32,612 bases of DNA from Ignavibacterium sp. (GCA_020724775.1 DYGG01000010.1:1-32612), one strand, 5' to 3'; shown: positions 4,190-21,276, numbered from the stretch's first letter. The notes: generated from the sequence alone by a model not told the origin. Numbers and translations are program-made.

Positions 4190-4678
4190 ATGAGGCTTTA
4201 CCAAGTCATCCCGCTGGCGCTGGTCGGGGTTGTTATTTCCGGCTGTTTTGTCTATTCGCTTTCGCCGGGAGGGAAATCGTCAATAAAGACTATCGCCGTT
4301 ACTCAGTTCGAGAACAAGACCATTGAAGCGGGACTTTCGGGTCGGATGACCGAAATGGTGGTCGATGCCTTTATAGCCGACGGCAATTTGAAGATCGCCT
4401 CACCGGAGCAAGCCGATGCCGTTCTGAGCGGGACGATGTCGAGTTATGAGCGTCGCCCCAAAAATTATGACGAAAACGACATTGTAACGCAGTACGCCGT
4501 GATAATTGTCTTCGATTTAAGCCTGACCGAAAAGGGGGGCGAAAAAGAAATCTGGAAGGAACGGTTTTCCAGCGAGGGGATTTACGCGGTGGAGAATGAA
4601 ATGGAAGAAGACGGGCAGAGCCGCGCCGCCGAGCGGCTGGTGTTGGACATAATTAATCGTACGACCAAAAGCTGGTAA
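4190..4678 (+). CDS. LptE-like LPS-assembly lipoprotein
   Basis: This 162-residue predicted lipoprotein has a signal peptide ending in a VISGC lipobox (Cys at about residue 19). After the Cys it reads like LptE-family proteins: a FVYSLSPGG segment, then TIAVTQFENKT, and a middle region ending in ADAVLSGTMSSYERRP. LptE plugs the LptD barrel in the outer membrane and helps deliver lipopolysaccharide to the surface. The frame is open from a TTG at 4175, but ATG 4190 gives a compact signal peptide; the ribosome site is weak for either. It heads an envelope cluster with a PorV-type barrel and another lipoprotein. No LptD is in the window, so the role rests on family resemblance. A related secretin-pilotin-like lipoprotein is the alternative. 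Confidence 0.7.
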   Translation: MRLYQVIPLALVGVVISGCFVYSLSPGGKSSIKTIAVTQFENKTIEAGLSGRMTEMVVDAFIADGNLKIASPEQADAVLSGTMSSYERRPKNYDENDIVTQYAVIIVFDLSLTEKGGEKEIWKERFSSEGIYAVENEMEEDGQSRAAERLVLDIINRTTKSW

Positions 4679-4732
4679 TTTTTAATTGACTGACACCGAC
4701 AAAGAGATATATTGAACGGAAACGAGGAACCA

Positions 4733-5686
4733 ATGACAATCACAAAAGTTTTATTATTCGGGCTGGCATTGTTCGTGATACTTCCGGCATATCAGGCATA
4801 TGCCGGGTTGAGCAACTCGAATGCCGGGACAACGGTATTCAATTTTCTCAAGATAGAATCGGCGGCCCGCCCGACCGCAATGGGTGGGGCATTCACGGGG
4901 CTTTCCAATGACCCCGCGGCTCTCTATTATAACCCGGCCGGCACGGCCATGCTCACCGGGCGCCAGTTCATTTTCAGTTATAATAACAGCATCGTTGACA
5001 TTCAGTCGGGATTTTTAGGGTATATTCACCCGGTCGGTCCGGACCGGAAACTTCTGGTCTATATCAACTATCTCAATTACGGCGATTTCATTCGCACCAA
5101 CAGCAACGGTGATGAAGAAGGGACTTTTTCGGGGAGCGATATTCTCTTTGGCGCCGGTTATGCAATGAAAGTCAAGGAAGACCTTCAGGCCGGAGGAGTG
5201 GCGAAACTGATTTACGAAAAGATTGATTCCTATTCGGCGGTGGGCATAGCTGTTGACCTTGCCATGAAGTGGCGTCTGGAGAGAAGCAATGCCGATTTTG
5301 GCTTGATGGTGCAAAATCTGGGGTTGCAGGCGACAACCTTTGTTGACGGCGGAGATAAAGAATCCTTGCCGCTGACCGTACGAGGCGGATACTCCAGCCG
5401 GCTGCGGGGACTCCCCTTGCTTGTCGCCGCCGACCTGGTCTATCCGACCGATAATGACCTCTACGTGGCTCTTGGCGCGGAACTTCTGAACCTGAAGCCG
5501 ATGTATATCAGGCTGGGATGGACAAGTCTCGGCTCCAATTATAAAACTGATTCCGATAAGGATGACTTCGCCGGTTTTGCCGCCGGATTCGGATTCGACT
5601 ACCGCAGGATGCAACTGTCGTACACCATTACACCGCAGGCAGAATTAGGGACAAGTCATCGGGTAACATTAACCGGAGCATTTTGA
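4733..5686 (+). CDS. PorV/PorQ-family outer-membrane beta-barrel protein
   Basis: This 317-residue protein has a signal peptide ending near AYQAYA (about residue 25). The mature part begins with the signature seen in PorV/PorQ (UPF0164-type) barrels: ESAARPTAMGGAFTGLSNDP followed by AALYYNPAGTA. The rest alternates short hydrophobic and aromatic strands and ends in a terminal phenylalanine (TGAF), as expected for an outer-membrane barrel inserted by the BAM machinery. In Bacteroidetes PorV is a shuttle protein of the type IX secretion system, but PorV-like proteins also occur where T9SS is not established, and no other T9SS component is visible here. ATG 4733 is preceded by GAGG at 4724-4727; a TTG at 4712 is a less likely start. 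The TGA stop overlaps the ribosome site of the next gene, suggesting cotranscription. Confidence 0.75.
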   Translation: MTITKVLLFGLALFVILPAYQAYAGLSNSNAGTTVFNFLKIESAARPTAMGGAFTGLSNDPAALYYNPAGTAMLTGRQFIFSYNNSIVDIQSGFLGYIHPVGPDRKLLVYINYLNYGDFIRTNSNGDEEGTFSGSDILFGAGYAMKVKEDLQAGGVAKLIYEKIDSYSAVGIAVDLAMKWRLERSNADFGLMVQNLGLQATTFVDGGDKESLPLTVRGGYSSRLRGLPLLVAADLVYPTDNDLYVALGAELLNLKPMYIRLGWTSLGSNYKTDSDKDDFAGFAAGFGFDYRRMQLSYTITPQAELGTSHRVTLTGAF

Positions 5687-6836: not shown

Positions 6837-8060
6837 ATGCGATTAACGACCGCCCTCTTCTTAACCCTTTTCCTCACCATGTCGGCCGCCACGGCGCAGG
6901 AGGCAGATTCCTCCCTGACCGTCGATTCTACATTTATCGCCCCACCGGATGTCACTCCGGTGATGGTCAAGAATCTGAGCGCTCGCGACAATCCGAATGA
7001 TGCCGGCGGCTCCATTCTGATAAAATGGGACCTGTCGGTGGATGATATCGAGGGGGGGAAAGTAACGCATTATCAGATTCTTCGCGCCGAGACCAGCGAA
7101 GGGGAATTTGAAGAGGTAGGGGAGGTTCCCTCCGGCAACAGCCAGTTTATTGACAACCGCGCCGACCGGGGTAGAGAATTTTATTATAAGGTGGCGGCGG
7201 TTAATCAACGGAAACAGGAGGGGAAACTGCTCTGGCAGGTCCGCTCGGAGTCAGCGTTGTCCGGTCCGGTCAAGTCGACCGCCCAGTGGTTTGATATGAG
7301 ACGGCTCAATGTTTTTGTCGGCATGATTATACTCTGCGGTTTGATAATAATTTACATCAATCGTGCCAAATCAGGAAAACCGATTTTCATTCGTAAAATA
7401 GCCGGACTGGATGCCGTTGAAGAAGCGGTCGGTCGCGCTACGGAAATGGGGAAGAAGATTTTCTTCATTCCGGGAATATCCGACATGGATAATGTTCAGA
7501 CCTTAGCCGGGATAACCATACTGGGTAAAGTGGCGCAGATGGCGGCGGAATATGAAACCTGGATAGAAGTTCCGGTAAGCCGTTCGCTGGTGATGGTGGC
7601 AGCGAAAGAGATTGTCAAAGAAGCCTATGTCAAGGCGGGGAGACCCGATGCCTTTCATGAAGACCAGGTGCATTACCTCACTGATGACCAGTTCGGGTAT
7701 GCGGCTGCGATTGACGGTATGTTCATTCGGGAAAAACCGGCGACGGTATTTTTCTTGGGGAACTTTTATGCCGAGTCGCTCATCTTAGCAGAAACCGGGA
7801 ATTCGATTGGAGCCATTCAGATTGCCGGTACGGGACAACAGACACAATTACCCTTTTTTGTCGCCGCCTGCGACTACACTCTCATAGGCGAAGAACTGTT
7901 TGCGGCATCGGCATATCTTTCACGCGAACCGAAACTGCTGGGCTCGCTTAAAGGGCAGGATATGGGAAAGGCGATTATTCTGCTGGCGCTTCTGGCGGGG
8001 ATAATCCTGGAGTCCTTCAATATATTCCAGTTGTCGCAATTCTTTTCGGTAATTGAATAG
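6837..8060 (+). CDS. Cassette 1 gene A: FN3-TM-conserved-domain membrane protein (DUF6754-like)
   Basis: This 407-residue membrane protein has a signal peptide (residues 1-20, ending ATAQ), a fibronectin type III-like domain (about 41-145) and a TM helix (about 157-175). A highly conserved soluble domain (about 185-375) and a second TM (about 378-395) follow. Positive charges after TM1 (NRAKSGKPIFIRK) place the conserved domain in the cytoplasm and FN3 outside. Landmarks are AVGRATEMG, AGRPDAF, YAESLILAETG, DYTLIGEELFAASAYL and GSLKGQD. I recall such domains labelled DUF6754, without a known function. ATG 6837 is used; the frame extends upstream to a TTG inside the terminator hairpin, which is not credible as a start. 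It is the first gene of three A-B-C-D cassettes and the paralog of the genes at 10393 and 14068. Confidence 0.85.
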   Translation: MRLTTALFLTLFLTMSAATAQEADSSLTVDSTFIAPPDVTPVMVKNLSARDNPNDAGGSILIKWDLSVDDIEGGKVTHYQILRAETSEGEFEEVGEVPSGNSQFIDNRADRGREFYYKVAAVNQRKQEGKLLWQVRSESALSGPVKSTAQWFDMRRLNVFVGMIILCGLIIIYINRAKSGKPIFIRKIAGLDAVEEAVGRATEMGKKIFFIPGISDMDNVQTLAGITILGKVAQMAAEYETWIEVPVSRSLVMVAAKEIVKEAYVKAGRPDAFHEDQVHYLTDDQFGYAAAIDGMFIREKPATVFFLGNFYAESLILAETGNSIGAIQIAGTGQQTQLPFFVAACDYTLIGEELFAASAYLSREPKLLGSLKGQDMGKAIILLALLAGIILESFNIFQLSQFFSVIE

Positions 8061-8077
8061 GAGAAAAGGGAAGAGCC

Positions 8078-8728
8078 ATGCGACGCGAGATTCCGCTTCT
8101 GATTACGGCGATAGTGGGAATCTTTTTTGTACTGCAGTATTTCATTCCGCATCCGCCGTTCAACCGGCTGAACGGATGGTTCTCCGATTGGTTTTCGATT
8201 ATCGGAGCCTGTGCCATCTGGCTGGGGGCGTTGAACCTGATTCGGATTTCCGCCGATAAGATTTACCGGAAACGTTCCGACTGGGGATTCAGCGTTGTCA
8301 TCATTCTCTCCTTCCTGCTGATAGTTGTTATAGGATTTAAGGAGGGACGGGATTTTCGTAATCCTGGTTCCGGTTTCGACTGGCTATACAATTTCATATA
8401 CACACCGCTATCGGCGACGATGTTTGCGCTCTTGGCGTTCTTTGTGGCATCGGCATCCTATCGCGCCTTCCGCGCCCGCAATCTTGAAGCCTCCTTGCTT
8501 CTGGTGGCGGCGTTTCTGGTGATGCTGGGGCGAGTTCCGGTTGGGGATGCCATCGGCGTATCGCTGGGACTTCCCGAAACAAATATCTCCAAAGTGGCCG
8601 TCTGGATAATGAATACTATAAATACCGCCGGTCAGCGGGCGATTTTAATCGGCATTGCCCTCGGGGTTGTTTCGACATCGCTGCGAATTATCCTGGGGAT
8701 TGAACGTTCTTATCTGGGGAGCGAGTAA
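8078..8728 (+). CDS. Cassette 1 gene B: six-TM inner-membrane protein
   Basis: This 216-residue, very hydrophobic protein has about six TM helices. The N-terminus MRREIPLL and the loops RISADKIYRKRSDW and YRAFRARN are positively charged, so N- and C-termini should face the cytoplasm. Conserved marks shared with the B genes at 11632 and 15315 are the W-F/IIG helix, ATMFALLAFFVASASYRAFR, the segment QRAILIGIALGVVSTSLR and the end GIERSYLG. The gene begins 17 bases after gene A, behind AGGAG and GAAGAG ribosome-site candidates, and ends 2 bases before gene C, so it belongs to the same message. I do not recognise a characterised family. A channel or scaffold subunit of the cassette complex is a guess. 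Confidence 0.85.
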   Translation: MRREIPLLITAIVGIFFVLQYFIPHPPFNRLNGWFSDWFSIIGACAIWLGALNLIRISADKIYRKRSDWGFSVVIILSFLLIVVIGFKEGRDFRNPGSGFDWLYNFIYTPLSATMFALLAFFVASASYRAFRARNLEASLLLVAAFLVMLGRVPVGDAIGVSLGLPETNISKVAVWIMNTINTAGQRAILIGIALGVVSTSLRIILGIERSYLGSE

Positions 8729-8730
8729 CT

Positions 8731-9744
8731 ATGACCCGCGGCGAATTAATGGCCTATCTCGTAATCGTGGCGGTAGTTCTGCTCCTGGCGTTTGCTGTCC
8801 CCAAACCGATTTCGTTTTCAACGACCGTTTCCTATATCATCGTTGGTTTTATCGCTCTGGTTCTGCTAATAATCTTTGTCAGGACCATTCAGGGAAACAT
8901 GGTGGGGCGCAGGATTGTTTTCCTCTTTGTTGGGATGGCGGTGATACTGCCGCTCTTTATGACCATTTCCCAGCCGATTCCGCTTTCGCCGGAAGTGAAG
9001 CAGGTATATGATGCGGTAGTGGCACTCAAGCCCGGTTCCAAAGTGCTGGTGTCATTTGATTATGACCCGCCGTCGGCTCCCGAACTGCAACCGATGGCGG
9101 AGACCTTTTTCCGCTTATGTCTTTCGCGCGATTTGAAAATTGTAATAATGGGCCTCTGGCCCCAGGGACCGCAACAGGCCGAAATAGCGATGCGAAAAAC
9201 GCTGGAGTATCCGGAGATTGCCTCCAAGAATCTGAGGTATGGGATTGATTACGTGAATCTCGGATTTCAAACCGGTAACGAGTTCGTCATTCAGCGGATG
9301 GGGGGCGATTTTAAGAGCATGTTTCCGACCGACCTCAATGGCACTGCTTATGACTCGCTGCCGCTGGTGCGGAATGTCCGCAATTTTTCCAATATTGACT
9401 ATGCTTTCCATCTCTCGGCAGGGTATCCCGGGACGGTGGAATGGGTGCAGGTGGCGGTGGACCGGTACGGTTTGAAGATGGGAGCCGGGAATACGGCGGT
9501 GCAGACGACTCAGATGTATCCTTATCTGCGGGCGCGGCAGTTGGTCGGGTTGCTGGGTGGACTGAACGGCGCCGCCGAGTTTGAGCGCGCCGCCGATATG
9601 ATCGGCAAGGCGACCAAGTTCATGGTATCGCAATCGTTTTCCCACATTATAGTAATTGCCTTCATTATAATTGGCAACGCTGCATTCTTTCTCGGTGATA
9701 AAAGCAGGAAGAGAAAACAAGAGGCTGCGGGAGGCGGGCACTGA
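8731..9744 (+). CDS. Cassette 1 gene C: membrane-anchored protein with soluble domain
   Basis: This 337-residue protein has three N-terminal TM helices (about 8-24, 32-51, 62-79), a soluble domain (about 88-300) and a C-terminal TM (about 303-322) followed by a basic tail (DKSRKRKQE). Arginines before TM3 (GRR) and the basic C-tail place the soluble domain on the outer face of the membrane. The domain starts with alternating helix/strand pattern (VKQVYDAVVALKPGSKVLVS), suggestive of a Rossmann-like fold. Motifs shared with the other C genes are YDPPSAPELQPM, GIDYVNLGFQ, the FPTDLNGTAYDSLPLV segment and QLVGLLGGLNGAAEFE. This copy has the most N-terminal helices of the three. Function unknown. 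It starts 2 bases after gene B. Confidence 0.85.
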   Translation: MTRGELMAYLVIVAVVLLLAFAVPKPISFSTTVSYIIVGFIALVLLIIFVRTIQGNMVGRRIVFLFVGMAVILPLFMTISQPIPLSPEVKQVYDAVVALKPGSKVLVSFDYDPPSAPELQPMAETFFRLCLSRDLKIVIMGLWPQGPQQAEIAMRKTLEYPEIASKNLRYGIDYVNLGFQTGNEFVIQRMGGDFKSMFPTDLNGTAYDSLPLVRNVRNFSNIDYAFHLSAGYPGTVEWVQVAVDRYGLKMGAGNTAVQTTQMYPYLRARQLVGLLGGLNGAAEFERAADMIGKATKFMVSQSFSHIIVIAFIIIGNAAFFLGDKSRKRKQEAAGGGH

Positions 9745-9745
9745 T

Positions 9746-10390
9746 ATGGAAATTTTCGGAACCTGGCTGGCGGCTTTCTTCACTCTGGGGATTATTTCCT
9801 TTCTCTATCGCGACAACGCCTGGTACAAACTGTGTGAGTCAATTTTTGTCGGCATCTCAGCCGGATACTGGTTTGTAACTTTATTCTGGGACAATATCCA
9901 CGGCTTGTTCTGGGAAAGGATTACCGAGCGGCACGACTACTGGCTTCTGATTGGCGCCTCGTTGGGACTGATGATGCTTCTCCGGCTCATTCCGCCGATA
10001 GGCTGGATTTCGCGCTGGCCGCTTTCATTTGTGGTCGGGGCGACCGCCGGTCTTTATATCATCAACTATTTTGCGTCCAATGTGATGGTTCAGGTGGAAA
10101 ATACTCTTATGCCTCTTTTCAGCGCCAAGTTCGGCGACCCCCTCTTTTCCGCATCGCCATACAGTATCGTCGGCAATATCGTGGTGGCTGCAGGAACATT
10201 CACCGGGCTGGTTTACTTTTTCTTTAGTAAAGAACACAAAGGGGCATTCGGCGGGATGGCTAAAATAGGCATCTGGACAATTATGATTACATTTGGAGCG
10301 TCGTTCGGGTATACGGTGATGAGCCGTATGTCGCTTCTGATTGGTCGGATGGATTTCATTTTCGGCGACTGGCTGGGACTGATTCGATAA
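9746..10390 (+). CDS. Cassette 1 gene D: six-TM inner-membrane protein
   Basis: This 214-residue polytopic membrane protein has about six TM helices. Landmarks conserved in all three D genes are FLYRDNAWYK after TM1, the VGISAGYWF helix, ISRWPLSFVVGATAG, YFFFSKEHKG and ITFGASFGYTVMSRMSLLIGR near the C-terminus. Several of these mix charged residues into or beside membrane segments (SKEHKG, YRDN), which is typical of functional sites rather than simple anchors. ATG 9746 is used because GGGAGG at 9729-9734 precedes it; the longer open frame runs inside gene C. It starts 1 base after the stop of gene C, so translational coupling is likely. No characterised family recognised. Confidence 0.83.
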   Translation: MEIFGTWLAAFFTLGIISFLYRDNAWYKLCESIFVGISAGYWFVTLFWDNIHGLFWERITERHDYWLLIGASLGLMMLLRLIPPIGWISRWPLSFVVGATAGLYIINYFASNVMVQVENTLMPLFSAKFGDPLFSASPYSIVGNIVVAAGTFTGLVYFFFSKEHKGAFGGMAKIGIWTIMITFGASFGYTVMSRMSLLIGRMDFIFGDWLGLIR

Positions 10391-10392
10391 CG

Positions 10393-11613
10393 ATGAAGAA
10401 CGTGCCGATATCATACCCGACCTTCTTTATTATTTTACCCCTACTTATTATTTTGAATTCAGCGCTGACCGCTCAGCCGGAGGTGACGCCTATTGACAGC
10501 GCCGCCGCGTTGATTCCCCGGAATATAACCGCGAAAGATTTTAAATATGACCGCGGCGAGACCATTGAACTCAACTGGAAACCGGCCGACCGCGTCAATC
10601 AGGAGATGCTTGACGGTTACGAAGTCTACCGTGCCGAGGAATCTTCGGACTCCTTCGTCTCTATCGGATTCACAGGCCCGGATGTAACCCGTTTCAAGGA
10701 CAATGGTGTCGTTTCGGAGAAAAGATACCGCTATCGGGTGGCGGCTATCGTTGGCGATGTTCCTTATCTGTCCGAGGCGACGCCGCCGGCAAGCCCGACC
10801 ATGGAATTGGTTAATTTCAATCTTGCCAACCTGTTTATCATAGGCTGTCTCATCGCCGGCGCCGTTACCTATTTTATAGGGCATGCTCGTCGTGGGAAAA
10901 AACTGTTTATCCGCAAGATTGCCGGTCTGGAGGCGATAGATGAAGCGATAGGACGGGCTACGGAGATGGGCCGCCCGATACTGTTTGTTCCCGGAATTAA
11001 TGATATGGATGACGTGCAGACGATTGCGGGAATAACGTTATTGGGACGAGTCGCAAAGGTCGTCGCCGATTATGATATAAAAATCAATATGCCGGTATCC
11101 CGTTCCATCGTGATGACCACGGCGCGCGAGACCATAAAGGAAGCATATATGGGAGCAGGGCGCCCGGACGCTTACAACGATGACATGGTGCGGTATATCA
11201 CCGACGAGCAATTCGGGTATGTGGCGGCGGTCGACGGTATCATGGTCAGGGAGAAACCGGCCACCTGCTTTTACCTGGGGGCGTTTTATGCGGAATCGCT
11301 GATTCTGGCGGAGACGGGAAATTCTATCGGCGCCATTCAGATTGCCGGGACAGCACAGCCGGCGCAGTTGCCATTCTTTGTCGCGGCGTGTGACTACACG
11401 CTGATTGGCGAGGAACTATTTGCGGCATCGGCATATCTCTCCAACGAGCCAAAGCAACTCGGTTCGCTTAAAGGGCAGGATGTCGGCAAACTGCTGGCAA
11501 TGGTAGTCATAATTGTTGGAGTGGTCGCCGCGACCATATCGCAGTCATGGAATATAGCATTCTTCACCAGGTTGTATGACCTTATGATAAAACTGTTCAC
11601 GGTGCAAAATTAA
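10393..11613 (+). CDS. Cassette 2 gene A: FN3-TM-conserved-domain membrane protein (DUF6754-like)
   Basis: This 406-residue protein is a paralog of the A genes at 6837 and 14068. It has a signal peptide (about 1-27, ending LTAQ), an FN3-like domain (about 43-140), TM1 (about 150-167), the conserved domain from KKLFIRKIAGL onward, and a C-terminal TM after GSLKGQDVGK. It keeps AIGRATEMG, AGRPDAY, YAESLILAETG, DYTLIGEELFAASAYL and GSLKGQD. By eye its conserved domain is closer to cassette 1 than to cassette 3 (for example GNSIGAIQIAGT is shared with cassette 1). The FN3 parts differ much more than the cytoplasmic domain. It starts 2 bases after gene D of cassette 1, so the cassettes are joined without an internal promoter-sized gap. 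Confidence 0.85.
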   Translation: MKNVPISYPTFFIILPLLIILNSALTAQPEVTPIDSAAALIPRNITAKDFKYDRGETIELNWKPADRVNQEMLDGYEVYRAEESSDSFVSIGFTGPDVTRFKDNGVVSEKRYRYRVAAIVGDVPYLSEATPPASPTMELVNFNLANLFIIGCLIAGAVTYFIGHARRGKKLFIRKIAGLEAIDEAIGRATEMGRPILFVPGINDMDDVQTIAGITLLGRVAKVVADYDIKINMPVSRSIVMTTARETIKEAYMGAGRPDAYNDDMVRYITDEQFGYVAAVDGIMVREKPATCFYLGAFYAESLILAETGNSIGAIQIAGTAQPAQLPFFVAACDYTLIGEELFAASAYLSNEPKQLGSLKGQDVGKLLAMVVIIVGVVAATISQSWNIAFFTRLYDLMIKLFTVQN

Positions 11614-11631
11614 GTCGATGAGGACGGCGCT

Positions 11632-12309
11632 TTGAAGCGAAAGATACCGGTCATAATTACATCACTGGTCGGGACGGTACTGATTCTCTCGGTCTTTTTC
11701 CCTCCGGCGGAACGGATGGGGGAAGATTTCTCCATCTTTTTTGATATTATCGCCGTCTTTGCTTTCTTCCTCGGCGGGGGAAATCTGGTGCGGATTCATG
11801 GCAACAAAATCTATAAGAAAGCGCGAGATTGGGGTTTCTCGGCGGTGACCTTGGCCGGCTTTTTCCTTATGCTTGCCGCCGGTCTTTTCAAAATTGCCAA
11901 TCCGGGTGGGATCGCCGCCGATGTTACAGCGCAGGGGTCGCTTTTTCAGATGCTTTACGACTGGATATTCAACCCGCTGGGAGCATCAATGTACGCGCTT
12001 CTGGCGTTTTATGTGGCATCGGCTTCGTACCGCGCTTTCCGCGCCAAGAATAAAGAGGCGACGATTCTTCTGATTGCCGCTTTTATCATCCTCCTGGGAC
12101 GGACGCCGTTGGGAGTTTACGCCACCGCTTGGATACCGGAGCAGTTCTCGCTTATGCAGATTCCGAATCTGGCTATCTGGATTATGACGGCGCCTAATCT
12201 TGCCGGACAGCGAGCCATTATGATTGGTATCGCGCTGGGGGTCATATCGATGTCACTGCGGCTGATTCTCGGTGTCGAGCGAACCTATCTGGGGACCGAC
12301 AATGAATAA
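11632..12309 (+). CDS. Cassette 2 gene B: six-TM inner-membrane protein
   Basis: This 225-residue, six-TM paralog of the B genes at 8078 and 15315 starts MKRKIPVIITSLVG and shares ASMYALLAFYVASASYRAFR, QRAIMIGIALGVISMSLR and the end GVERTYLG. The best start is TTG at 11632: GAGG at 11620-11623 lies 8 bases upstream and the product then begins exactly like the other two B proteins. A TTG start may keep expression lower than in the neighbours. It carries a slightly longer loop between TM3 and TM4 (the IANPGGIAADVTAQGSLFQ region) than the other copies. The last 8 bases overlap the start of gene C. Confidence 0.82.
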   Translation: MKRKIPVIITSLVGTVLILSVFFPPAERMGEDFSIFFDIIAVFAFFLGGGNLVRIHGNKIYKKARDWGFSAVTLAGFFLMLAAGLFKIANPGGIAADVTAQGSLFQMLYDWIFNPLGASMYALLAFYVASASYRAFRAKNKEATILLIAAFIILLGRTPLGVYATAWIPEQFSLMQIPNLAIWIMTAPNLAGQRAIMIGIALGVISMSLRLILGVERTYLGTDNE

Positions 12310-13213
12310 TCTGGGACTGATTATATCATTCCTGGTGATTGGCGCCGGCTTACTCTGGTTCCTGCTGCGCGCCTTACAGGGTAAAGAAGTCGAGCGGAGA
12401 ATTATCTTTGTCTTTATCGGTCTGGCTGTCTCCGTTCCGATACTTTTCAGTATCACCTTCGCCGAGAAAGCCTCCCCTATAGTGAAGGCGGTCTATGACA
12501 AGATTGAAAATCTTCCGGACGGCTCCCGGGTTCTGATTTCGTACGATTACGGGCCATCGATGGCGCCTGAAGTAGAGCCTATGTCGAACGCTTTTTTGCG
12601 TCATTCACTGGCGAAAGGACACAAGGTTTACCTGATGGGTCTCTGGGCGACCGGGCAGTCTATTGCCGCAACAGCGATTGATAGTGTCGTAAGAAGAGAA
12701 TTCCCGGAAAAGGTTTACGGGGTTGACTTCGTCAACCTGGGGTATAAGGCGGGTAATCAGGGCGTTCTCAATGTAATTATAACCGATATCAGGAAGATGT
12801 ATCTGACCGATGTCGGCGGGATCGACCTTGATTCGTTGCCTATAATGGACGGTATCAAGTCACTGCGGAATATGAATCTGCTGATGTCGGTTGGGGGCGG
12901 CTTTCCCGGAATCAAAGAGTGGATTCAGTTTGCCGGTGACCCGGGACACATCCCGGTTGCCGGCGGAAGCGCCGCTGTCTCGGCGCCGCTTCTTTATCCC
13001 TATTATCCGACACAACTGCTGGGGCTGCTCGGCGGAATCAAAGGGGCGGCAGAGTATGAAGCGGAGTTGAAACGTCACTATCCGCAATTTGCCGATACCC
13101 CGCAGCCGGGGATAAAAATGATGGGTCCGCAGACTTTGGCGCACCTGGTAATTATGGCGTTCATCATTATCGGAAATATCTCATTCTTTGTCGCGCGAAG
13201 AAGGCGGGGTTGA
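12302..13213 (+). CDS. Cassette 2 gene C: membrane-anchored protein with soluble domain
   Basis: This 303-residue paralog of the C genes has two N-terminal TM helices (about 4-21 and 35-52), one fewer than cassette 1, then the soluble domain and a C-terminal TM with a basic end (ARRRRG). It keeps YDYGPSMAPEVEPM, GVDFVNLGYKAGNQG, DLDSLPIM, GGFPGIKEW and QLLGLLGGIKGAAEYE. An extra segment near residue 258-275 (LKRHYPQFADTPQP) is not in cassette 1. ATG 12302 overlaps the end of gene B by 8 bases, giving translational coupling; the frame also extends a little upstream within gene B. The soluble domain is predicted outside the cytoplasm by the positive-inside rule. Confidence 0.83.
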   Translation: MNNLGLIISFLVIGAGLLWFLLRALQGKEVERRIIFVFIGLAVSVPILFSITFAEKASPIVKAVYDKIENLPDGSRVLISYDYGPSMAPEVEPMSNAFLRHSLAKGHKVYLMGLWATGQSIAATAIDSVVRREFPEKVYGVDFVNLGYKAGNQGVLNVIITDIRKMYLTDVGGIDLDSLPIMDGIKSLRNMNLLMSVGGGFPGIKEWIQFAGDPGHIPVAGGSAAVSAPLLYPYYPTQLLGLLGGIKGAAEYEAELKRHYPQFADTPQPGIKMMGPQTLAHLVIMAFIIIGNISFFVARRRRG

Positions 13214-13214
13214 T

Positions 13215-14033
13215 ATGAACGGCAGTAGATGGACTATGATTGTTTTGATTGCCGTAGTAACCCTTTTTCTCGTAAGTTGGGCGATAAAGTCATTCCCGTC
13301 GTCGGGGGATACAATATCATGGCCCTCAATACGGCATGCTTTCTTTGTGACCCTGGCGGCATTTGTAACATTGGCGATTTTTTCTTTTCTCTATAAGGAC
13401 AATCCTTATTACAAGTTTGCCGAGCATCTCTTTGTCGGGGTTTCGGCGGCATACTGGATGTGCGTCGGATTCTGGTCCACCTTTGTGGGCAATCTGATTC
13501 CGCGCATCTCGCCGGGACTGTCGAAATTTTTTGGGGTGCCTTATAAGGAGTTTACTTTTTATTACTTTGTTCCCCTGATTCTGGGGATTCTGCTTCTCAT
13601 GAGACTGTCGTCGAAAGCCGGGTGGCTTTCGCGCTGGGCGCTGGCGTTCATAGTCGGCACCACTGCCGGCCTTAATTTAATAAGATATTTGCGTTCCGAT
13701 TTTATCAGCCAGGTGAGCAATACTTTTGTGCCGTTACTGGTGCAATGGAAGGGCACCGGGGCGTTCTTCTCCGATTTCTCCCTGGCGTCGGGGGGACAGT
13801 TTACCCTGATGCTGACCAACTGGGTGATTTTTATCGGGACCTTCTGCGGGTTGATATACTTTTTCTTTTCTAAGGAACATAAAGGAGTCTTTGGCGCCGC
13901 ATCCCGCGTCGGTATCTGGGTGCTGATGATAACTTTTGGCGCCTCCTTCGGATATACCGTTATGGGACGCGTGTCTCTTCTGGTGGGGCGATTGACATTT
14001 CTTTTCGATGACTGGCTGGGACTGATGAATTGA
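13215..14033 (+). CDS. Cassette 2 gene D: seven-TM inner-membrane protein
   Basis: This 272-residue paralog of the D genes has an extra N-terminal TM helix (about 8-24) not found in cassettes 1 and 3, joined by a linker (SFPSSGDTISWPSIRH). The common core then follows: FLYKDNPYYKFAEHLFVGVS, a LSRWALAFIVGTTAG segment, YFFFSKEHKGVFG and ITFGASFGYTVMGRVSLLVGR. It starts 1 base after gene C. The conserved SKEHKG and GASFGYTVM stretches are nearly identical among the three D proteins, while the loops between TM2 and TM3 vary in length. Function unknown. Confidence 0.83.
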   Translation: MNGSRWTMIVLIAVVTLFLVSWAIKSFPSSGDTISWPSIRHAFFVTLAAFVTLAIFSFLYKDNPYYKFAEHLFVGVSAAYWMCVGFWSTFVGNLIPRISPGLSKFFGVPYKEFTFYYFVPLILGILLLMRLSSKAGWLSRWALAFIVGTTAGLNLIRYLRSDFISQVSNTFVPLLVQWKGTGAFFSDFSLASGGQFTLMLTNWVIFIGTFCGLIYFFFSKEHKGVFGAASRVGIWVLMITFGASFGYTVMGRVSLLVGRLTFLFDDWLGLMN

Positions 14034-14067
14034 GCAATTATAGATGGGTATAAGGTATGAGGTATCT

Positions 14068-15303
14068 ATGAAACGTCAATTTCTGTTGCTGCTCTTGCTC
14101 TGTTTTGCCGTGGCTGCGCCCCTGGCGACAGCGCAGACAGCCGAAGATAGCCCGTTATCCGGTGAAGCCGCCGTCGCGGTATCCCCCGCGCCGGGTCCGG
14201 TATCCAACATTCAACTCAAGGATACCGACAACGACCATGGCCACTCGGTGACGCTATCGTGGGAGATTTCGCCTGATGACGGCGCCGGTCTGAATAATGT
14301 CATCGGCTATGAAATCCACCGGGCTTTGTCCCCGGAGGGCCCCTTTGTGAAGCGGGCGGGAGTGCCGGCCGGGTCGCATTCTCATGTCGATGTCGGCTCC
14401 AAAGAGGAAAGCTCCCCCGATTATATGAAAGACTACATCGATTATTACTACAAAATCAGGACGATTACAGCCGACAGCGCCGTTAATGCCGAATCGACCG
14501 TGGCAGGGCCGATACAGTCCTACGGGCAGTGGTTTAATACCGGCCGAGTCCCGGTGCTGATATTCGTTGCCTGCTTTCTGGCGCTGACACTTTACTTCAT
14601 CAACCGCGCCAAAGGAGGAGCCGACCTTTATGTGCGTCCCCTGGCTGGAATCGGCGCCGTCGATGAAGCAATAGGCCGCGCCACCGAAATGGGGAAGCCA
14701 ATTCTTTACGTACTGGGGCTGGGGACGGCCGCTGATATTGCGACCATTGCGTCGTACACCATCCTGGGACGGGTGGCGAAAAAGGTCGCCGAGTATCAGA
14801 CGGGGCTGATTGTTCCGTGCTACGACCCGATTGTCATGACCGTAGCGCAGGAAACGGTGAAAGCCTCGTATGCCGATGCCGGGCGCCCCGACTCCTACAA
14901 AGAAGATATGGTCTATTTTGTGACGCAGTCGCAGTTCGCCTATGTGGCGGCGGTAAACGGCACCATGCTCCGTGACCTTCCCGCTACCAATATCTATATG
15001 GGAAAATTTTACGCCGAATCGCTGATTCTTGCCGAAACCGGAGCTCTGGCCGGCTCGATACAGATTGCCGGCACCGATGAAATCGCTCAGATACCGTTCT
15101 TCGTTGTCGCCTGCGATTACACTCTAATCGGCGAGGAACTCTACGCGGCATCGGCTTACCTGGGACGGGAACCGCTTTTGCTGGGTTCGCTCAAAGCCCA
15201 GGACTATGCCAAAGCCGGGGTCATATTGATTGCCTTAGTCGGTTTTATACTGCTGAACTTCGGCGTTGACGGTTTCAAAGAATTCTTCTTCGTGAGCAAT
15301 TGA
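14068..15303 (+). CDS. Cassette 3 gene A: FN3-TM-conserved-domain membrane protein (DUF6754-like)
   Basis: This 411-residue protein is the most divergent A paralog. It has a signal peptide (about 1-23, ending ATAQ), an FN3-like domain (about 40-150) with a longer loop containing a Ser/Glu-rich insertion, TM1 (about 168-185), the conserved domain and a C-terminal TM. It keeps AIGRATEMGKP, AGRPDSY, YAESLILAETG, DYTLIGEELYAASAYL and GSLKAQD, but has GALAGSIQIAGTDE where cassettes 1 and 2 have GNSIGAIQIAGT. ATG 14068 with GAGGT at 14059-14063 is chosen over ATG 14044, which would add eight residues before the signal peptide. The gap to gene D of cassette 2 is 34 bases, the largest junction between cassettes. 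Confidence 0.84.
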   Translation: MKRQFLLLLLLCFAVAAPLATAQTAEDSPLSGEAAVAVSPAPGPVSNIQLKDTDNDHGHSVTLSWEISPDDGAGLNNVIGYEIHRALSPEGPFVKRAGVPAGSHSHVDVGSKEESSPDYMKDYIDYYYKIRTITADSAVNAESTVAGPIQSYGQWFNTGRVPVLIFVACFLALTLYFINRAKGGADLYVRPLAGIGAVDEAIGRATEMGKPILYVLGLGTAADIATIASYTILGRVAKKVAEYQTGLIVPCYDPIVMTVAQETVKASYADAGRPDSYKEDMVYFVTQSQFAYVAAVNGTMLRDLPATNIYMGKFYAESLILAETGALAGSIQIAGTDEIAQIPFFVVACDYTLIGEELYAASAYLGREPLLLGSLKAQDYAKAGVILIALVGFILLNFGVDGFKEFFFVSN

Positions 15304-15314
15304 GGAGATAGACT

Positions 15315-15956
15315 ATGAAGAGACAATTACCGTTATTTCTGGTTCTTATATTCGGTCTCTTTGGGATTGTCCAGTACTTCATTCCTCACGAGAAATCGGA
15401 ATGGATGTACGAATTCCTCCTCGACTGGATATATATCATCGGCATTTTTGCCCTCGCCCTGGGAATCTGGTCGCTTATGCGAGTCTCCTGGGACAAGATA
15501 AAGCATAAAAGGCAGAACTGGCAGTATTCGATTGTGACCCTGACCGGGTTGTTTGCGATGATTTTCTTCGGGTTCAATTATTTTCGTGACTTCTTTAATT
15601 CGGCCGGGCTGCAGAACTATATGTTCCGCGCCTTCTTCGATCATATAATGATTCCGATACAGGCGACGATGTTTTCCCTGCTGGCGTTTTTTATCGCCTC
15701 GGCCGCTTACCGGGCATTCCGCGCCCGGTCGCTTCTGGCAACACTTCTGCTAATTTCAGCCCTAATCATCATGCTCCGGTTCAACCCCTATCTCGGATTT
15801 ATTGGCGACTACATGGAAAGGACCGCCCTCTGGCTCCTCAATGTCCCCAACCTTGCCGCCAAAAGGGCGATTATTATCGGTGTGGGACTGGGAATGGTAG
15901 CCACTTCGCTGAAGGTAATCCTGGGAATTGAACGAGCCTATCTGGGGAAGGATTGA
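15315..15956 (+). CDS. Cassette 3 gene B: six-TM inner-membrane protein
   Basis: This 213-residue B paralog starts MKRQLPLFLVLIFG. It shares the pattern YFIPHEKSEW (compare YFIPHPPFNR in cassette 1), ATMFSLLAFFIASAAYRAFR, KRAIIIGVGLGMVATSLK and the end GIERAYLG. Six TM helices are predicted with cytoplasmic basic loops (SWDKIKHKRQNW, YRAFRARS). GAGGAG overlapping the stop of gene A provides the ribosome site, 11 bases before the start, so A and B are coupled. The shared YFIPH motif, absent from cassette 2, shows the copies did not diverge in a simple stepwise way. Confidence 0.84.
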   Translation: MKRQLPLFLVLIFGLFGIVQYFIPHEKSEWMYEFLLDWIYIIGIFALALGIWSLMRVSWDKIKHKRQNWQYSIVTLTGLFAMIFFGFNYFRDFFNSAGLQNYMFRAFFDHIMIPIQATMFSLLAFFIASAAYRAFRARSLLATLLLISALIIMLRFNPYLGFIGDYMERTALWLLNVPNLAAKRAIIIGVGLGMVATSLKVILGIERAYLGKD

Positions 15957-15966
15957 GGAGGACAAT

Positions 15967-16830
15967 ATGAATATATTTGATCGTATGATGTCTCTGGACC
16001 GACGCTGGGTCTTCCTCTTCATCGCGCTGGTCTGCGTTATTACTTATGTATGGCCCTTTTCAATTCCGATACGAATAACCGAAGAAGTGAAGGCGATTTA
16101 TAGTTTTATTGAAAAACTGAATGAAGGGGACATAATTTTCCTGGGAATCGACTATGACCCCAATGCTCTGGCGGAACTGCACCCGATGAGTTATGCCATC
16201 GCCGAGCAGGCGTTCCGCAAGAAACTGCGGGTGATATTTGTGACGCTGTCGCAGAACGGACCCGGCATGGCTGACCAGGCGATTCGCGATATCAGCGACT
16301 CGGTAAAACTGGACAAGACCTATAACGGTGTTTTCTATCCGGGCCGGGAGATAAAAAACGGCATCGATTATGTCTTTCTCGGTTACAAACCGTATCCGGC
16401 GCTGGTAATTCTCGGGATGGGGCAGAATTTCCGGATTCCGTTCCCCTCCGACTATTACGGCACTCCCCTCGACAGCATCCCGATGATGAAAGGGGTCATG
16501 AATTACGACCAGGTGAAATGTGTGATCGATTTTGCCGCCGGAAACGTGGCCGATATGTGGATTTCCTACGGGCAGGGACGGTACAATTTCCCGCTGGCGC
16601 TCGGTATGACCGGAGTTATGGGAGCCGATTACTATCCATATCTGAATTCGGGTCAGATATTCGGTATAATGGGTGGGCTTCTGGGTGCGGCGCAGTATGA
16701 AAAACTCGCCGATAATCCCGGCCCGGCCATTGACGGAATGCGGATTCAGGTCTATGCCCATATTGTAATCATACTGTTCATCATAATTGGCAACATCGGG
16801 TTCCTTGTATCCCGACGGAAACAGGGTTAG
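15967..16830 (+). CDS. Cassette 3 gene C: membrane-anchored protein with soluble domain
   Basis: This 287-residue protein is the shortest C paralog, with a single N-terminal TM (about 12-30, preceded by DRR), the soluble domain and a C-terminal TM with the basic end SRRKQG. It keeps YDPNALAELHPM, GIDYVFLGYKPYPA, the segment FPSDYYGTPLDSIPMM, YPYLNSGQIFGIMGG and GAAQYEKLAD. Both ends being basic puts the domain outside the cytoplasm. The start ATG 15967 has GAGGAG at 15955-15960, overlapping the stop of gene B; a longer frame from 15928 runs inside gene B. Loss of the two extra N-terminal helices of cassette 1 is the clearest structural difference. Confidence 0.84.
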   Translation: MNIFDRMMSLDRRWVFLFIALVCVITYVWPFSIPIRITEEVKAIYSFIEKLNEGDIIFLGIDYDPNALAELHPMSYAIAEQAFRKKLRVIFVTLSQNGPGMADQAIRDISDSVKLDKTYNGVFYPGREIKNGIDYVFLGYKPYPALVILGMGQNFRIPFPSDYYGTPLDSIPMMKGVMNYDQVKCVIDFAAGNVADMWISYGQGRYNFPLALGMTGVMGADYYPYLNSGQIFGIMGGLLGAAQYEKLADNPGPAIDGMRIQVYAHIVIILFIIIGNIGFLVSRRKQG

Positions 16831-16843
16831 GAGGTGAAATAAA

Positions 16844-17635
16844 ATGGATGCATTTTCAATAGGAACTTATCTCTGGACAACCTTTGGCGCCTTTCTGACT
16901 CTTTGCATTTTTTCCTTCCTGTACCGGGACAATCCTTTTTATAAGTTCGCAGAACATCTGGTAGTCGGCGTCTCCGCCGGTTATTTCGTAATCATTCTCT
17001 GGCACAACGGCCTTCAGCCAAACCTCTTCAACCGCCTCAATGACGGCGACTTCTATCTGCTCTGGCTGAATTCGGCCCGCCCCTGGTACCTGATACCGGG
17101 TATTCTGGGTGTCATGATGTGGACCCGCTTCTCGCGGAAAAAATCCTGGATCAGCCGCTATCCGATTGCTATGTACATGGGTATCGCCGCCGGTATTGCG
17201 GTGCCATTGGAAATGAAAAACCGCGTTAACGTGCAGTTGTATTCGGCGATGAAGAACGTAGAATGGAACAACTTCTTCGGGACAGGAATCCTTGATTCCG
17301 GTTCGGCCGTGGCGCAATTGATTATCTTAATCGGAACGCTCTCGGCTCTGTTTTATTTCTTCTTCTCCAAAGAGCACTCCGGGCTGTTCAAAGGAGTAGC
17401 GCGTTTCGGTATCTGGATACTGATGATAGGCTTCGGCGCCTCTTTCGGATATACCGTGATGGGCCGTATTTCACTCTTCGTTCAGAGAATCCAATATGTC
17501 GGCAACTGGACCGAAACCTCATGGGCGCACCCGTCGGTGCTCGTAATCTGGTTCTTGATAGTTGGTGTCTTTGCCCTTCTCCTGCTGCTGGAATTCATTA
17601 AATTCTTAACCAAGCGGAGGACGGCAGCCTCATAG
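16844..17635 (+). CDS. Cassette 3 gene D: seven-TM inner-membrane protein
   Basis: This 263-residue D paralog has the common six-TM core (FLYRDNPFYKFAEHLVVGVS, ISRYPIAMYMGIAAG, a YFFFSKEHSGLFKG segment, IGFGASFGYTVMGRISLF) plus an extra C-terminal TM (about 230-253) ending in a basic tail (KFLTKRRTAAS). The conserved SKEHKG is SKEHSG here. A near-perfect Shine-Dalgarno sequence, AGGAGGTG at 16829-16836, lies 7 bases before ATG 16844. This is the strongest ribosome site of the array, which may compensate for its promoter-distal position. A perfect intrinsic terminator follows 35 bases after the stop. Confidence 0.84.
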   Translation: MDAFSIGTYLWTTFGAFLTLCIFSFLYRDNPFYKFAEHLVVGVSAGYFVIILWHNGLQPNLFNRLNDGDFYLLWLNSARPWYLIPGILGVMMWTRFSRKKSWISRYPIAMYMGIAAGIAVPLEMKNRVNVQLYSAMKNVEWNNFFGTGILDSGSAVAQLIILIGTLSALFYFFFSKEHSGLFKGVARFGIWILMIGFGASFGYTVMGRISLFVQRIQYVGNWTETSWAHPSVLVIWFLIVGVFALLLLLEFIKFLTKRRTAAS

Positions 17636-17965: not shown

Positions 17966-18289
17966 ATGGCGATAACGGCAGGAAACGCCGGCGCCAAAAC
18001 AAGAGTCAGGAAGAGAGGAAAGGGTAAGCTTTCAACTCCGGAAGCGCGCAGAGAGTATCAACGACGGTACTACCAGTTGCACAAGGAAAAAGCCAAGGAG
18101 TATCAACGTCAGTACAATCTTACCCACAAGAAGAAGGCCCGGGGGGGCAGAGGGAAAGCGAATTTCGTCTGTCCACGAGAGCCGATTCGTTCCACTTTTA
18201 ACACTTCTGACATAATGCACTCTCCAGTGGAGAAAACCTTGAAGATACTGGAGAAAATCATCAACGGCGAACGGCTATTCACGATGTAA
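17966..18289 (+). CDS. Small basic protein, unknown function
   Basis: This 107-residue, strongly basic protein (many Lys/Arg) has no signal peptide or TM helix. Residues 29-58 contain two near-repeats of about 15 residues built on YQRRYYQLHKEKAKE and YQRQYNLTHKKKARG, probably a long amphipathic helix. Similar Y-Q-x-x-Y/K-rich helices occur in small nucleic-acid-binding and phage-associated proteins, so DNA or RNA binding is plausible but unproven. GAGGTGGGGGG directly before ATG 17966 is a strong ribosome site. The gene has its own promoter region with a dyad and its own terminator (18308-18345), so it is an independent unit. The C-terminal third (HSPVEKTLKILEKIINGERL) looks like a separate short helix. 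Confidence 0.65.
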   Translation: MAITAGNAGAKTRVRKRGKGKLSTPEARREYQRRYYQLHKEKAKEYQRQYNLTHKKKARGGRGKANFVCPREPIRSTFNTSDIMHSPVEKTLKILEKIINGERLFTM

Positions 18290-18348: not shown

Positions 18349-18403
18349 TTGCTTTGTGCGCAAAAATCTTATAATTTTTGCAAAATTTTGAACATTGGGG
18401 AGG
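18349..18403 (+). promoter_or_regulatory. ppdK: Candidate ppdK promoter and ribosome site
   Basis: A consensus TATAAT stands at 18370-18375, just after the preceding terminator. The best -35 is TTGCTT (18349-18354), at a short 15-base spacing. GGGGAGG at 18397-18403 is a strong Shine-Dalgarno sequence 5 bases before ATG 18409. The leader is short, about 25-30 bases. Confidence 0.45.
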
Positions 18404-18408
18404 CCGGT

Positions 18409-21276
18409 ATGGTTGCAGTCAAGAAAGAAACAAAGCGCCAACCAAACAGGGCATCTGTGAAAAGCAAAATCCCGAGGAAAGTGAGCATGGCAAAAATGAC
18501 CAAATCGAAAAGCGCCGGGTCGAAGAAAAGTAATCCGGAGAAGAAATCATCCAGGGAAAAATCATCCCGTGGTAAATCGACGGCAAAATTCACGCTGGAG
18601 CATCCGGCATATTACTTTTTCGGCGGCGGCAAGGCTGACGGAGACGGCGCCATGCGCGACCTGCTGGGAGGAAAAGGAGCCGGTCTGGCCGAAATGACCC
18701 GCGCCGGAATTCCGGTACCGGCCGGTTTCACCATAACTACCGAAGTCTGCAAAATCTATTATCAGAATAATCTGGAGATTCCCGAGGAAATAGACCGCGA
18801 ACTGCCCAAATTTATGGGGAAAATTGAGGACATAATGGGCGCCAAATTCGGCGACCCCAATAATCCTCTTCTGGTTTCGGTCCGCTCCGGCGCCAAATTC
18901 TCCATGCCGGGAATGATGGATACGATTCTCAATCTCGGTCTCAATAAAGATACTCTGGAAGGGCTGACAAAAAAGACCGGCGATGCCCGTTTTGCCTATG
19001 ACAACTACCGCCGATTTGTTCAGATGTTCGGCAATGTCGTCCTCGGCATTGACAAAGAGAAATTTGAGGAAATCATTGAGGCGAAGAAAAAGGAGCGGCG
19101 CATTAAGCAGGACTCTTCGCTTTCAGTCGAAGACCTGAGTGATATCGTCAAGAAATTCAAAGCGATTATAAAGAAAAAGACAGGAGAATCTTTTCCGGAT
19201 GACCCCTGGCAGCAGTTGCGATTGGCGCGCGATGCCGTCTTCCGTTCCTGGAACAATCCGCGGGCAATCAGTTATCGCAAATTGAATAATATCCCCAGCG
19301 ACCTCGGCACGGCGGTCAATATTCAGGCGATGGTTTTCGGAAATATGGGAAACAACTCCGGAACCGGGGTCGGTTTTACTCGCAATCCCGCAACCGGAGA
19401 GAAAGAGTTTTACGGCGAATATCTGCTGAACGCCCAGGGGGAGGATGTAGTCGCCGGTATCCGAACGCCGCAACCAATATCACAACTTGGCTCGGAAATG
19501 CCGGAAGTTTATAAGCAGTTGAAAGAGATCACCACCCGGCTGGAGAAACATTATCGGGATGTTCAGGATTTCGAGTTCACGATTCAGCAGGGGAAGTTGT
19601 ACATGCTGCAGACCCGCGCCGGCAAAAGGACGGTGCAGGCGGCGCTGAAAATCGCCGTCGATATGGTCAAGGAAAAACTGATTACCAAAGAAGAGGCGAT
19701 AATGCGTCTGGAGCCGGCGCAACTGGACCAGTTGCTGCATCCTCGCCTTGACCCTAAAGCGGAGTATGAAGTTATCGCGCGCGGACTGCCGGCATCGCCG
19801 GGGGCGGCATCAGGTGCCATCTATTTCACCGCCGAAGCCGCCGTTAAAGCCGCCAAAGGAGGCGACCCGGTGATACTGGTGAGACAGGAGACCAACCCCG
19901 ACGATATCGAAGGGATGCATGCCGCGGCGGGAATACTTACTTCTCGCGGGGGGATGACTTCCCACGCGGCGGTGGTGGCTCGTGGTATGGGAAAATGCTG
20001 TGTTGCCGGTTGTGAAGCGGCCCGAGTCAATGAAGCCAAAAAGCAACTGCAAATCGGCAAACTGATAATCAAGGAAAAGGAGATTATCACCCTGAACGGC
20101 TCCATCGGCGAGGTTATGCTTGGTCCCGTAGCGACCATCGAACCGGAACTGTCGGGGGAATTTGCCGAATATATGTCGTGGGCAGATGAAATCAGGAAAT
20201 TGAAGGTGCGCGCCAATGCCGATACTCCTCGTGACGCCAAACAGGCGCGAAAGTTCGGAGCCGAAGGGATCGGACTCTGCCGCACCGAACATATGTTTTT
20301 CTCCGAAGATAGAATCCCCGTCGTGCAGGAGATGATTCTGGCGGATTCGACCGAAGAGCGCCAGCAAGCCCTGGATAAATTGCTTCCGTTCCAGAGAGCC
20401 GATTTCCGCGCCCTCTTTGAGGTAATGGATGGGCTTCCGGTGACGATTCGCACCCTCGACCCGCCCCTGCACGAGTTTCTTCCGGACAAAAGAGAAATCG
20501 AAAACGAACTCGAGGAACTGGATAAAGCAGACGAGCATTATGACGAGATTCTCGCCCGCAAGAGAAAGATACTTCAGCGGATTGACGAACTGAAAGAGAT
20601 AAATCCGATGCTGGGACATCGGGGTTGCCGTCTCGGAATAGTTTTTCCGGAGATAACGGAAATGCAGGTCCGGGCGATTATCGAAGCCGCCTGTCAGGTC
20701 ATCCGGGACAAGAAACGTGTGGTGCCGGAGATAATGATTCCGCTGGTAGGTCATATCAATGAACTCAGAAATCAGATAGAAATTGTGCGTCGGGTGGCGG
20801 AGGAAGTGACGACCAAATTCAAGGTGAAAAATCTTGAATACGCGGTTGGCACTATGATAGAAATCCCCCGCGCCGCCATTGTTGCCGATGAAATCGCGAC
20901 CGAGGCGGAGTTTTTCAGTTTCGGCACTAATGATTTGACGCAGATGACCATGGGGTTCTCGCGTGACGATGCCGGCAAATTCCTGAGATATTATGTGGAC
21001 AAAGGGATACTCCCGAATGACCCGTTTGTCAGCATTGACCAGGAAGGGGTCGGTTATCTGGTTGACCTGGGAGTTAAAGGTGGCCGTCGAACCCGACCCG
21101 ATTTGAAGATCGGAATCTGCGGCGAGCATGGAGGAGACCCGGATTCCATAGACTTTTGCCACCGAACGGGGTTGAATTATGTTTCCTGCTCTCCCTTCCG
21201 GGTGCCGATAGCGCGCCTGGCGGCGGCGCAGGCAACCATCAAAGAGAAGAAAAAAACCTCCGAAAGGGACAAATAA
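18409..21276 (+). CDS. ppdK: Pyruvate, phosphate dikinase with basic N-terminal extension
   Basis: PPDK is a cytosolic enzyme that interconverts pyruvate + ATP + Pi and phosphoenolpyruvate + AMP + PPi. The protein is 955 residues against about 874-900 usually. The nucleotide-binding domain starts near residue 66 (YYFFGGGKADGDG, then LLGGKGAGLAEMTRAG). The phosphohistidine motif GGMTSHAAVVARGMGKCC holds His519. The C-terminal PEP/pyruvate barrel carries GFGTNDLTQM-like FSFGTNDLTQMTMGFSRDD and the catalytic-type Cys927 in NYVSCSPFRVPIARLAAAQA. Residues 1-62 are an additional Lys/Ser-rich, low-complexity basic extension with no counterpart in ordinary PPDK. GGGGAGG precedes ATG 18409; an in-frame ATG at 18487 also has a fair ribosome site (GAGGAAA at 18474-18480) and would give 929 residues. 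It may work in gluconeogenesis or PPi-linked glycolysis. Confidence 0.94.
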   Translation: MVAVKKETKRQPNRASVKSKIPRKVSMAKMTKSKSAGSKKSNPEKKSSREKSSRGKSTAKFTLEHPAYYFFGGGKADGDGAMRDLLGGKGAGLAEMTRAGIPVPAGFTITTEVCKIYYQNNLEIPEEIDRELPKFMGKIEDIMGAKFGDPNNPLLVSVRSGAKFSMPGMMDTILNLGLNKDTLEGLTKKTGDARFAYDNYRRFVQMFGNVVLGIDKEKFEEIIEAKKKERRIKQDSSLSVEDLSDIVKKFKAIIKKKTGESFPDDPWQQLRLARDAVFRSWNNPRAISYRKLNNIPSDLGTAVNIQAMVFGNMGNNSGTGVGFTRNPATGEKEFYGEYLLNAQGEDVVAGIRTPQPISQLGSEMPEVYKQLKEITTRLEKHYRDVQDFEFTIQQGKLYMLQTRAGKRTVQAALKIAVDMVKEKLITKEEAIMRLEPAQLDQLLHPRLDPKAEYEVIARGLPASPGAASGAIYFTAEAAVKAAKGGDPVILVRQETNPDDIEGMHAAAGILTSRGGMTSHAAVVARGMGKCCVAGCEAARVNEAKKQLQIGKLIIKEKEIITLNGSIGEVMLGPVATIEPELSGEFAEYMSWADEIRKLKVRANADTPRDAKQARKFGAEGIGLCRTEHMFFSEDRIPVVQEMILADSTEERQQALDKLLPFQRADFRALFEVMDGLPVTIRTLDPPLHEFLPDKREIENELEELDKADEHYDEILARKRKILQRIDELKEINPMLGHRGCRLGIVFPEITEMQVRAIIEAACQVIRDKKRVVPEIMIPLVGHINELRNQIEIVRRVAEEVTTKFKVKNLEYAVGTMIEIPRAAIVADEIATEAEFFSFGTNDLTQMTMGFSRDDAGKFLRYYVDKGILPNDPFVSIDQEGVGYLVDLGVKGGRRTRPDLKIGICGEHGGDPDSIDFCHRTGLNYVSCSPFRVPIARLAAAQATIKEKKKTSERDK

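Follow-up and report, generated by a model that had tools for sequence, protein, structure and literature searches.

What does a four-gene membrane cassette do, and why would a bacterium keep three copies of it in a row? The question is raised by a 32,612-nucleotide stretch of DNA from Ignavibacterium sp. (GCA_020724775.1, DYGG01000010.1:1-32612), which we call the window. Positions 6837-17635 hold twelve intact open reading frames (ORFs) on the + strand, in the order A-B-C-D three times. The original prediction, which was made from this sequence, described them as three tandem cassettes, and our searches agree: the A proteins match the family PF20539 and the others match profile hidden Markov models (HMMs) of their own families, all with E<=2e-86. 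The copies within the window are 45-51% (A), 42-53% (B), 33-40% (C), or 40-51% (D) identical to each other, which is far above chance. We tentatively favor the explanation that the cassettes encode the membrane components of an inner-membrane system, F-E-(A-B-C-D)n, which would be driven by ATP and act on the cell envelope.

F and E are two more conserved genes, upstream of A, that we found by clustering the neighboring genes and that the original prediction had overlooked. F encodes a protein of ~617 amino acids from the MutL/GlmL family (ASKHA). E encodes a soluble protein of ~375 amino acids, with a mean column identity of 67% across 14 sequences from several phyla. In several lineages, F-E-(ABCD)1-3 is one operon. 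For instance, locus L167 (loci are given by our own labels) has F-E-ABCD-ABCD-ABCD without interruption; pyruvate phosphate dikinase (PPDK) comes next, as it does after the array in the window. The array in the window thus looks like an operon of this type whose F-E is now elsewhere. Several lineages have two smaller genes, G and H, ahead of F: L122, L131, and L150 read G-F-E-ABCD or H-G-F-E-ABCD, and some of these loci include one or two additional genes. Three loci from Marinimicrobia have F and E as a fusion. In the genome that the window comes from, F and E are together on contig C75, with one copy of each; this F was recognized by homology (81% to another F). In much of the window's phylum, a ~270-amino-acid protein with a signal peptide and no match in Pfam is encoded between F and E (L117 11756-12568).

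The window genome is 3.07 Mb and 96% complete, and the window is its contig C28. Its nearest named relatives are metagenome-assembled genomes of Zixiibacteriota, at 70-80% identity in A, and the genome probably belongs to this phylum (Zixibacteria). The conserved domain of A, DUF6754, was present in all 132 genomes of the phylum that we examined, mostly in 4-6 copies, and in none of 14 control genomes. E was found in 77 of 78 good genomes from the phylum. There is one full-length copy of E, and the additional weak matches are longer paralogs; E stays single-copy while the number of cassettes varies from 1 to 6. In a phylum with 16 genomes (G140), E was found in all 12 genomes that contain A. 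Of the other four genomes, which lack A, three are also without E; the fourth has a fragment of E at the edge of a contig, so A could lie past the edge. E was also present in all of 31 further A-bearing genomes from many phyla. That F and E are nearly invariant suggests that the cassette makes up the membrane portion of something larger.

To see how widely the cassette is distributed, we scanned one genome per species and retained the top 80 among the confirmed stretches, of which there were at least 568; the range is a lower bound. Among the titles of the records with hits were Zixiibacteriota, WOR-3/Stahlbacteria, Coatesbacteria, Eisenbacteria, Cloacimonadota, Gemmatimonadota, Neomarinimicrobiota, Fermentibacteria/Aegiribacteria, Latescibacterota, and Caldithrix, or about ten phyla in all. 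(A few records with other titles may be misassigned bins.) We assembled 123 complete cassettes, and deviations from the order A-B-C-D are rare; in one locus titled Caldithrix, unrelated genes are inserted into the cassette. The original prediction had proposed checking whether the four families occur together in other genomes, and they do, in a fixed order. Also, in the libraries that we searched, none of the four families is part of a characterized system.

The number of cassettes bears on the simplest model in the original prediction, in which the three cassettes form one heteromeric, pseudo-threefold complex. Many genomes from the phylum do have the three subfamilies in the same order, and all four gene trees recover each subfamily as a clade. 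But a single cassette is common in other phyla, and an early-branching genome from the window's phylum, which is 99% complete, has two. The window genome itself has five cassettes in three places, with six A genes: besides the window's three, there is an A-B-C-D cassette on contig C15 and a cassette with two adjacent A genes, A-A-B-C-D, on contig C72 (L033 9746-11501). Many genomes manage with one cassette, so there is no need to assume a fixed threefold complex, and we consider this model to be rather improbable. The A proteins of contigs C15 and C72 are without the FN3-sized N-terminal region. The A-A-B-C-D layout is also seen in L126, from another genus. The cassette on C15 (L034 9946-12832) is divergent from an ABC transporter operon with a protein that resembles extracellular sugar-binding proteins.

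The three cassettes are ancient. Across ten loci with three cassettes, cassettes 1, 2, and 3 form separate clades in the concatenated tree as well as in the individual trees for A, B, C, and D. Of 27 splits, 12-18 are shared between the gene trees (the mean after shuffling was ~0.2). The clades and the shared splits indicate that the cassettes were duplicated as units, and the claim that whole cassettes were duplicated and their copies retained thus holds. Cassette 2 groups with the single cassettes from records of Gemmatimonadota, Calditrichota, and Marinimicrobia, and cassette 3 groups with second-type cassettes from other lineages, although the support for the deeper nodes varies. A recent duplication is rejected by the gene trees and by the identities of 33-53% between copies. 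Judging from these sequences, the cassettes are old subfamilies rather than recent repeats, and either the duplication preceded or was close to the origin of the phylum or there was early exchange.

F would link the system to ATP, but its named relatives work with cobalamin enzymes. F matches the Pfam model for MutL (PF13941) with 434 bits, where the cut-off is 27 (as tested on F from a record titled Gemmatimonadetes), and it has the conserved ASKHA-type motifs DCGSTTTKA and GVDIGGATTD. It falls below the cut-offs of the NCBIfam equivalog for GlmL (236.5 bits, cut-off 475) and of TIGR01319 (176.6 bits, cut-off 204). GlmL serves glutamate mutase, so we considered whether F-E might act as a chaperone that reactivates a cobalamin-dependent enzyme, with the membrane cassette being secondary or handling a metabolite. 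F's family fits this idea, as do longer F-E fusion paralogs that are encoded elsewhere in these genomes. But methylaspartate mutase subunit E (PF06368) is over the cut-off in just 5 of the 132 genomes from the phylum, while E is nearly universal; F does not reach the equivalog cut-offs for GlmL; and F-E and ABCD share one operon in several lineages. We think it very improbable that F-E is such a chaperone. As most of the genomes lack glutamate mutase, F is not simply a mutase chaperone, and we reject this as its sole role. We also rejected F as a replacement for FtsA, which is over the cut-off in 39 of 40 genomes.

The window genome is one of the five with methylaspartate mutase subunit E, whose gene (G000 C72 4649-5911) shares a contig with the fifth cassette. 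Diverged F-E fusion paralogs of ~950 amino acids are found in several phyla (L132 6957-9863, L133 5322-8171, and L134 6965-9808), and in these three loci they have no constant neighbors.

The N-terminal part of E is weakly similar to RnfC_N (20.2 bits, below the cut-off of 25.6; E=6e-4) and to NQRA_N (also below the cut-off). The rest of E has weak resemblances to RraA and to NusG/Spt5-type proteins. The N-terminal similarity raises the idea of an Rnf/Nqr-type ion or redox pump, in which E would correspond to the N-terminal barrel of RnfC/NqrA and B and D to the small six-transmembrane subunits, which are of similar size. However, B and D do not match the NqrD, NqrE, or Rnf families, and no flavin or iron-sulfur domain was found in any part of the system. 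In the small membrane subunits of Rnf/Nqr, conserved cysteines bind an iron-sulfur site. The alignments of B, C, and D contain no conserved cysteine, which argues against an iron site of this type and weakens the case for a redox pump. We see at most a slim chance that this is the correct explanation.

What can be said about the four membrane proteins themselves? A1, A2, and A3 match PF20539 (DUF6754) with 382-420 bits (the curated cut-off is 27 bits); this domain covers the C-terminal half of A, and every A protein belongs to the family. Neither B, C, and D nor E had a match above the cut-off in Pfam or NCBIfam. Sequence searches of the PDB, using profiles for A, B, C, D, and E and also using F, identified no significant relative, and comparing the profiles of A and C gave no homology. 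A plasmid search gave no match. We rejected an anti-phage defense system, as no PADLOC model of such systems matched A-H at E<=0.01.

The AlphaFold2 model for A, made from A1 (pLDDT 87), contains an FN3 domain along with an alpha/beta domain. Its matches in Foldseek are mostly FN3 domains, with the best alignment at Z 12.5, which bears out the FN3 domain that was originally proposed for A; the Pfam model for fn3 has weak matches to just 7 of 55 A proteins. The DUF6754 part of the model aligns with the structure of a Sir2 protein (1s7g; Z 11.7, 144 residues, 3.5 A), and A has a weak resemblance to eIF2B/MtnA (E 0.04-0.09). The AlphaFold2 model for C, made from C1 (pLDDT 94), has a Rossmann-like domain that is flanked by N- and C-terminal transmembrane segments. 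Foldseek reported no match for C at E<=0.001; the best rows from the aligner were MT0777 (1kjn, Z 10.1) and the epsilon subunit of CODH/ACS (3cf4, Z 9.5), which we read as a shared Rossmann-like fold only. The similarities of A and of C are at the level of the fold and are silent about function. The distribution of charged residues (the positive-inside rule) suggests that the DUF6754 domain of A is cytoplasmic and that the domain of C is periplasmic.

Alternatively, the cassettes could be transporters or receptors, each with its own solute or signal, with C as a membrane-tethered binding domain whose ligand differs between paralogs. B and D are polytopic and have conserved charged residues in their alignments, C is weakly similar to periplasmic sugar-binding proteins (3rot, Z 8.3), and a copy number of 1 to 6 would fit with various ligands. 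But there is no match above the cut-off to any transporter family, no ABC ATPase is found among A-D or among F, E, G, and H, and F is not a known transport ATPase. Also, the subfamilies are old and fixed instead of diversifying rapidly. We view a set of transporters or receptors as unlikely.

We return to the system that we favor, in which F and E would be the single cytoplasmic actuator of each genome, with F binding ATP via its ASKHA motifs, and each A-B-C-D set would be one membrane module. B and D would be the polytopic core of the module. The cytoplasmic side of A would be its Rossmann-like DUF6754 domain, which could contact F-E there, and its FN3 arm would extend into the periplasm, while C would provide a second Rossmann-like domain on the periplasmic side. 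A, B, and D would relay the ATP-driven movement of F-E to the arms in the periplasm, and these arms would tether envelope parts or act on them, alongside Tol-Pal. In Zixibacteria, several ancient versions of the membrane module would share one F-E unit. Consistent with periplasmic arms, extra domains are found in parts that are predicted to be periplasmic: the A proteins of Cloacimonadota have ~700 residues ahead of DUF6754, and the B protein of a third cassette (L055 18732-20507) has FG-GAP repeats between its third and fourth hydrophobic segments, in a loop that is predicted to be periplasmic.

The link to Tol-Pal comes from gene neighborhoods. TolQ adjoins F-E in 12 of 20 sampled E loci from Zixibacteria, usually along with TolR, a TolA/TonB-like protein, TolB, Pal, and a TPR protein, and the window genome has the same arrangement beside its F-E. 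In other phyla, a TolQ/ExbB gene lies within ~6 kb of ABCD or F-E in one genome each of WOR-3, Fermentibacteria, and Marinimicrobia, which encode two, three, and one TolQ/ExbB in total, respectively.

Several considerations count against this explanation. We noticed the proximity to TolQ/ExbB in the three other phyla in hindsight, and it is therefore no more than suggestive. Within the window's phylum, adjacency to Tol-Pal is common to one part and could reflect a single ancient event, and in early-branching lineages, F-E adjoins ABCD and Tol-Pal is not there. The ATPase activity of F is putative, and proteins of its family with a name act on cobalamin enzymes. The Rossmann-like folds of C and A would fit equally well with a role like that of a binding protein or with an enzymatic role. 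The model is built from sequences and predicted structures: the genomes directly show the parts, their fixed order and co-occurrence, the pattern of copy numbers, and the ancestry, while the topology, the ATPase activity, the assembly, and the role in the envelope are inferred. The function of the system has no published account.

In some WOR-3 loci (L138 9423-14544 and also L062, L076, L077, and L083), the cassette is followed by a protein with DUF4388 and two short proteins, which are roadblock-like by eye but have no match in Pfam, and then by two small membrane proteins, TolQ/ExbB, ExbD, and TonB. In L156 and L158, E is within ~8 kb of the genes for LptF/LptG.

The features of the window are listed in Table 1. 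(The ORF of A1 is open from 6792.) Upstream of A1 are LptE and a UPF0164/PorV-like gene; one related genome, L163, likewise has a block of hutU-hutI-LptE-UPF0164-lipoprotein ahead of A1, but L162 and L164 do not. The small basic protein and PPDK that lie downstream are also found after the array in other genomes from the phylum (L045, L046, L048, L165, and L166), and L167 has PPDK alone.

Table 1. The cassette array and its flanking genes, with positions in the window
Feature	Description	Position	Strand	Evidence
LptE		4175..4678		PF04390
UPF0164	UPF0164/PorV-like gene	4712..5686		
A1	Signal peptide, FN3, transmembrane segment, DUF6754 domain, C-terminal transmembrane segment	6837..8060	+	PF20539 E=6.6e-126
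B1	Polytopic membrane protein, ~six transmembrane segments	8078..8728	+	Family HMM E=1e-99; no family above cut-off
C1	N-terminal transmembrane segment(s), Rossmann-like domain, C-terminal transmembrane segment	8731..9744	+	Family HMM E=3e-137
D1	Polytopic membrane protein	9746..10390	+	Family HMM E=2e-99
A2		10393..11613	+	PF20539 E=2.8e-126
B2		11632..12309	+	Family HMM E=1e-93
C2		12302..13213	+	Family HMM E=4e-129
D2	Extra N-terminal hydrophobic segment	13215..14033	+	Family HMM E=5e-99
A3		14044..15303	+	PF20539 E=1.5e-114
B3		15315..15956	+	Family HMM E=2e-86
C3		15967..16830	+	Family HMM E=7e-127
D3	Extra C-terminal hydrophobic segment	16844..17635	+	Family HMM E=5e-87
Small basic protein		17966..18289		
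PPDK	Pyruvate phosphate dikinase	18349..21276		

How much of this system has been described? In the open-licence literature, we found no paper on DUF6754, on PF20539, or on a Tol-Pal gene cluster in Zixibacteria, and nothing relevant on GlmL or glutamate mutase L. The domain of A and the family of F already have names, and we found no description of the six-part system in that literature. Three of the four membrane subunits (B, C, and D) are in no named family, and the family of the ATPase-like partner is named after an unrelated enzyme. Since at least six proteins are involved, and since they are found in nearly every genome of the phylum and across about ten phyla, the system is likely to be part of the basic cell biology of diderm bacteria that have seldom been grown in culture. 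It is possible, if somewhat doubtful, that the system represents a new class of ATP-driven trans-envelope machine that is widespread in diderm candidate phyla, with one ASKHA-type actuator and several ancient four-subunit modules that reach into the periplasm.

Each of the known systems that it resembles shares just some of its features. The entry for PF20539 describes a domain of unknown function and mentions neither B, C, D, E, or F nor any system. The GlmL/MutL families (PF13941, TIGR01319, and NF040745) share F's match to MutL and the phosphate motifs of ASKHA proteins, which F has kept; F differs in its scores below the GlmL cut-offs, in the lack of a mutase in most of the genomes, and in having a membrane cassette as its neighbor. 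Rnf and Nqr resemble the system in the weak barrel-sandwich similarity of E to RnfC/NqrA and in having small polytopic subunits, but the membrane cysteines are not conserved in our system and redox domains were not found in it. Like the system that we propose, Tol-Pal is a trans-envelope system, and it shares the gene neighborhood of F-E in part of the phylum; it differs in that we saw nothing homologous to Tol proteins among A-D, E, and F, and the Tol-Pal genes form a separate, adjacent operon. If the F-E-(A-B-C-D)n system serves the envelope, then it would be another machine beside Tol-Pal, Lpt, and Mla.

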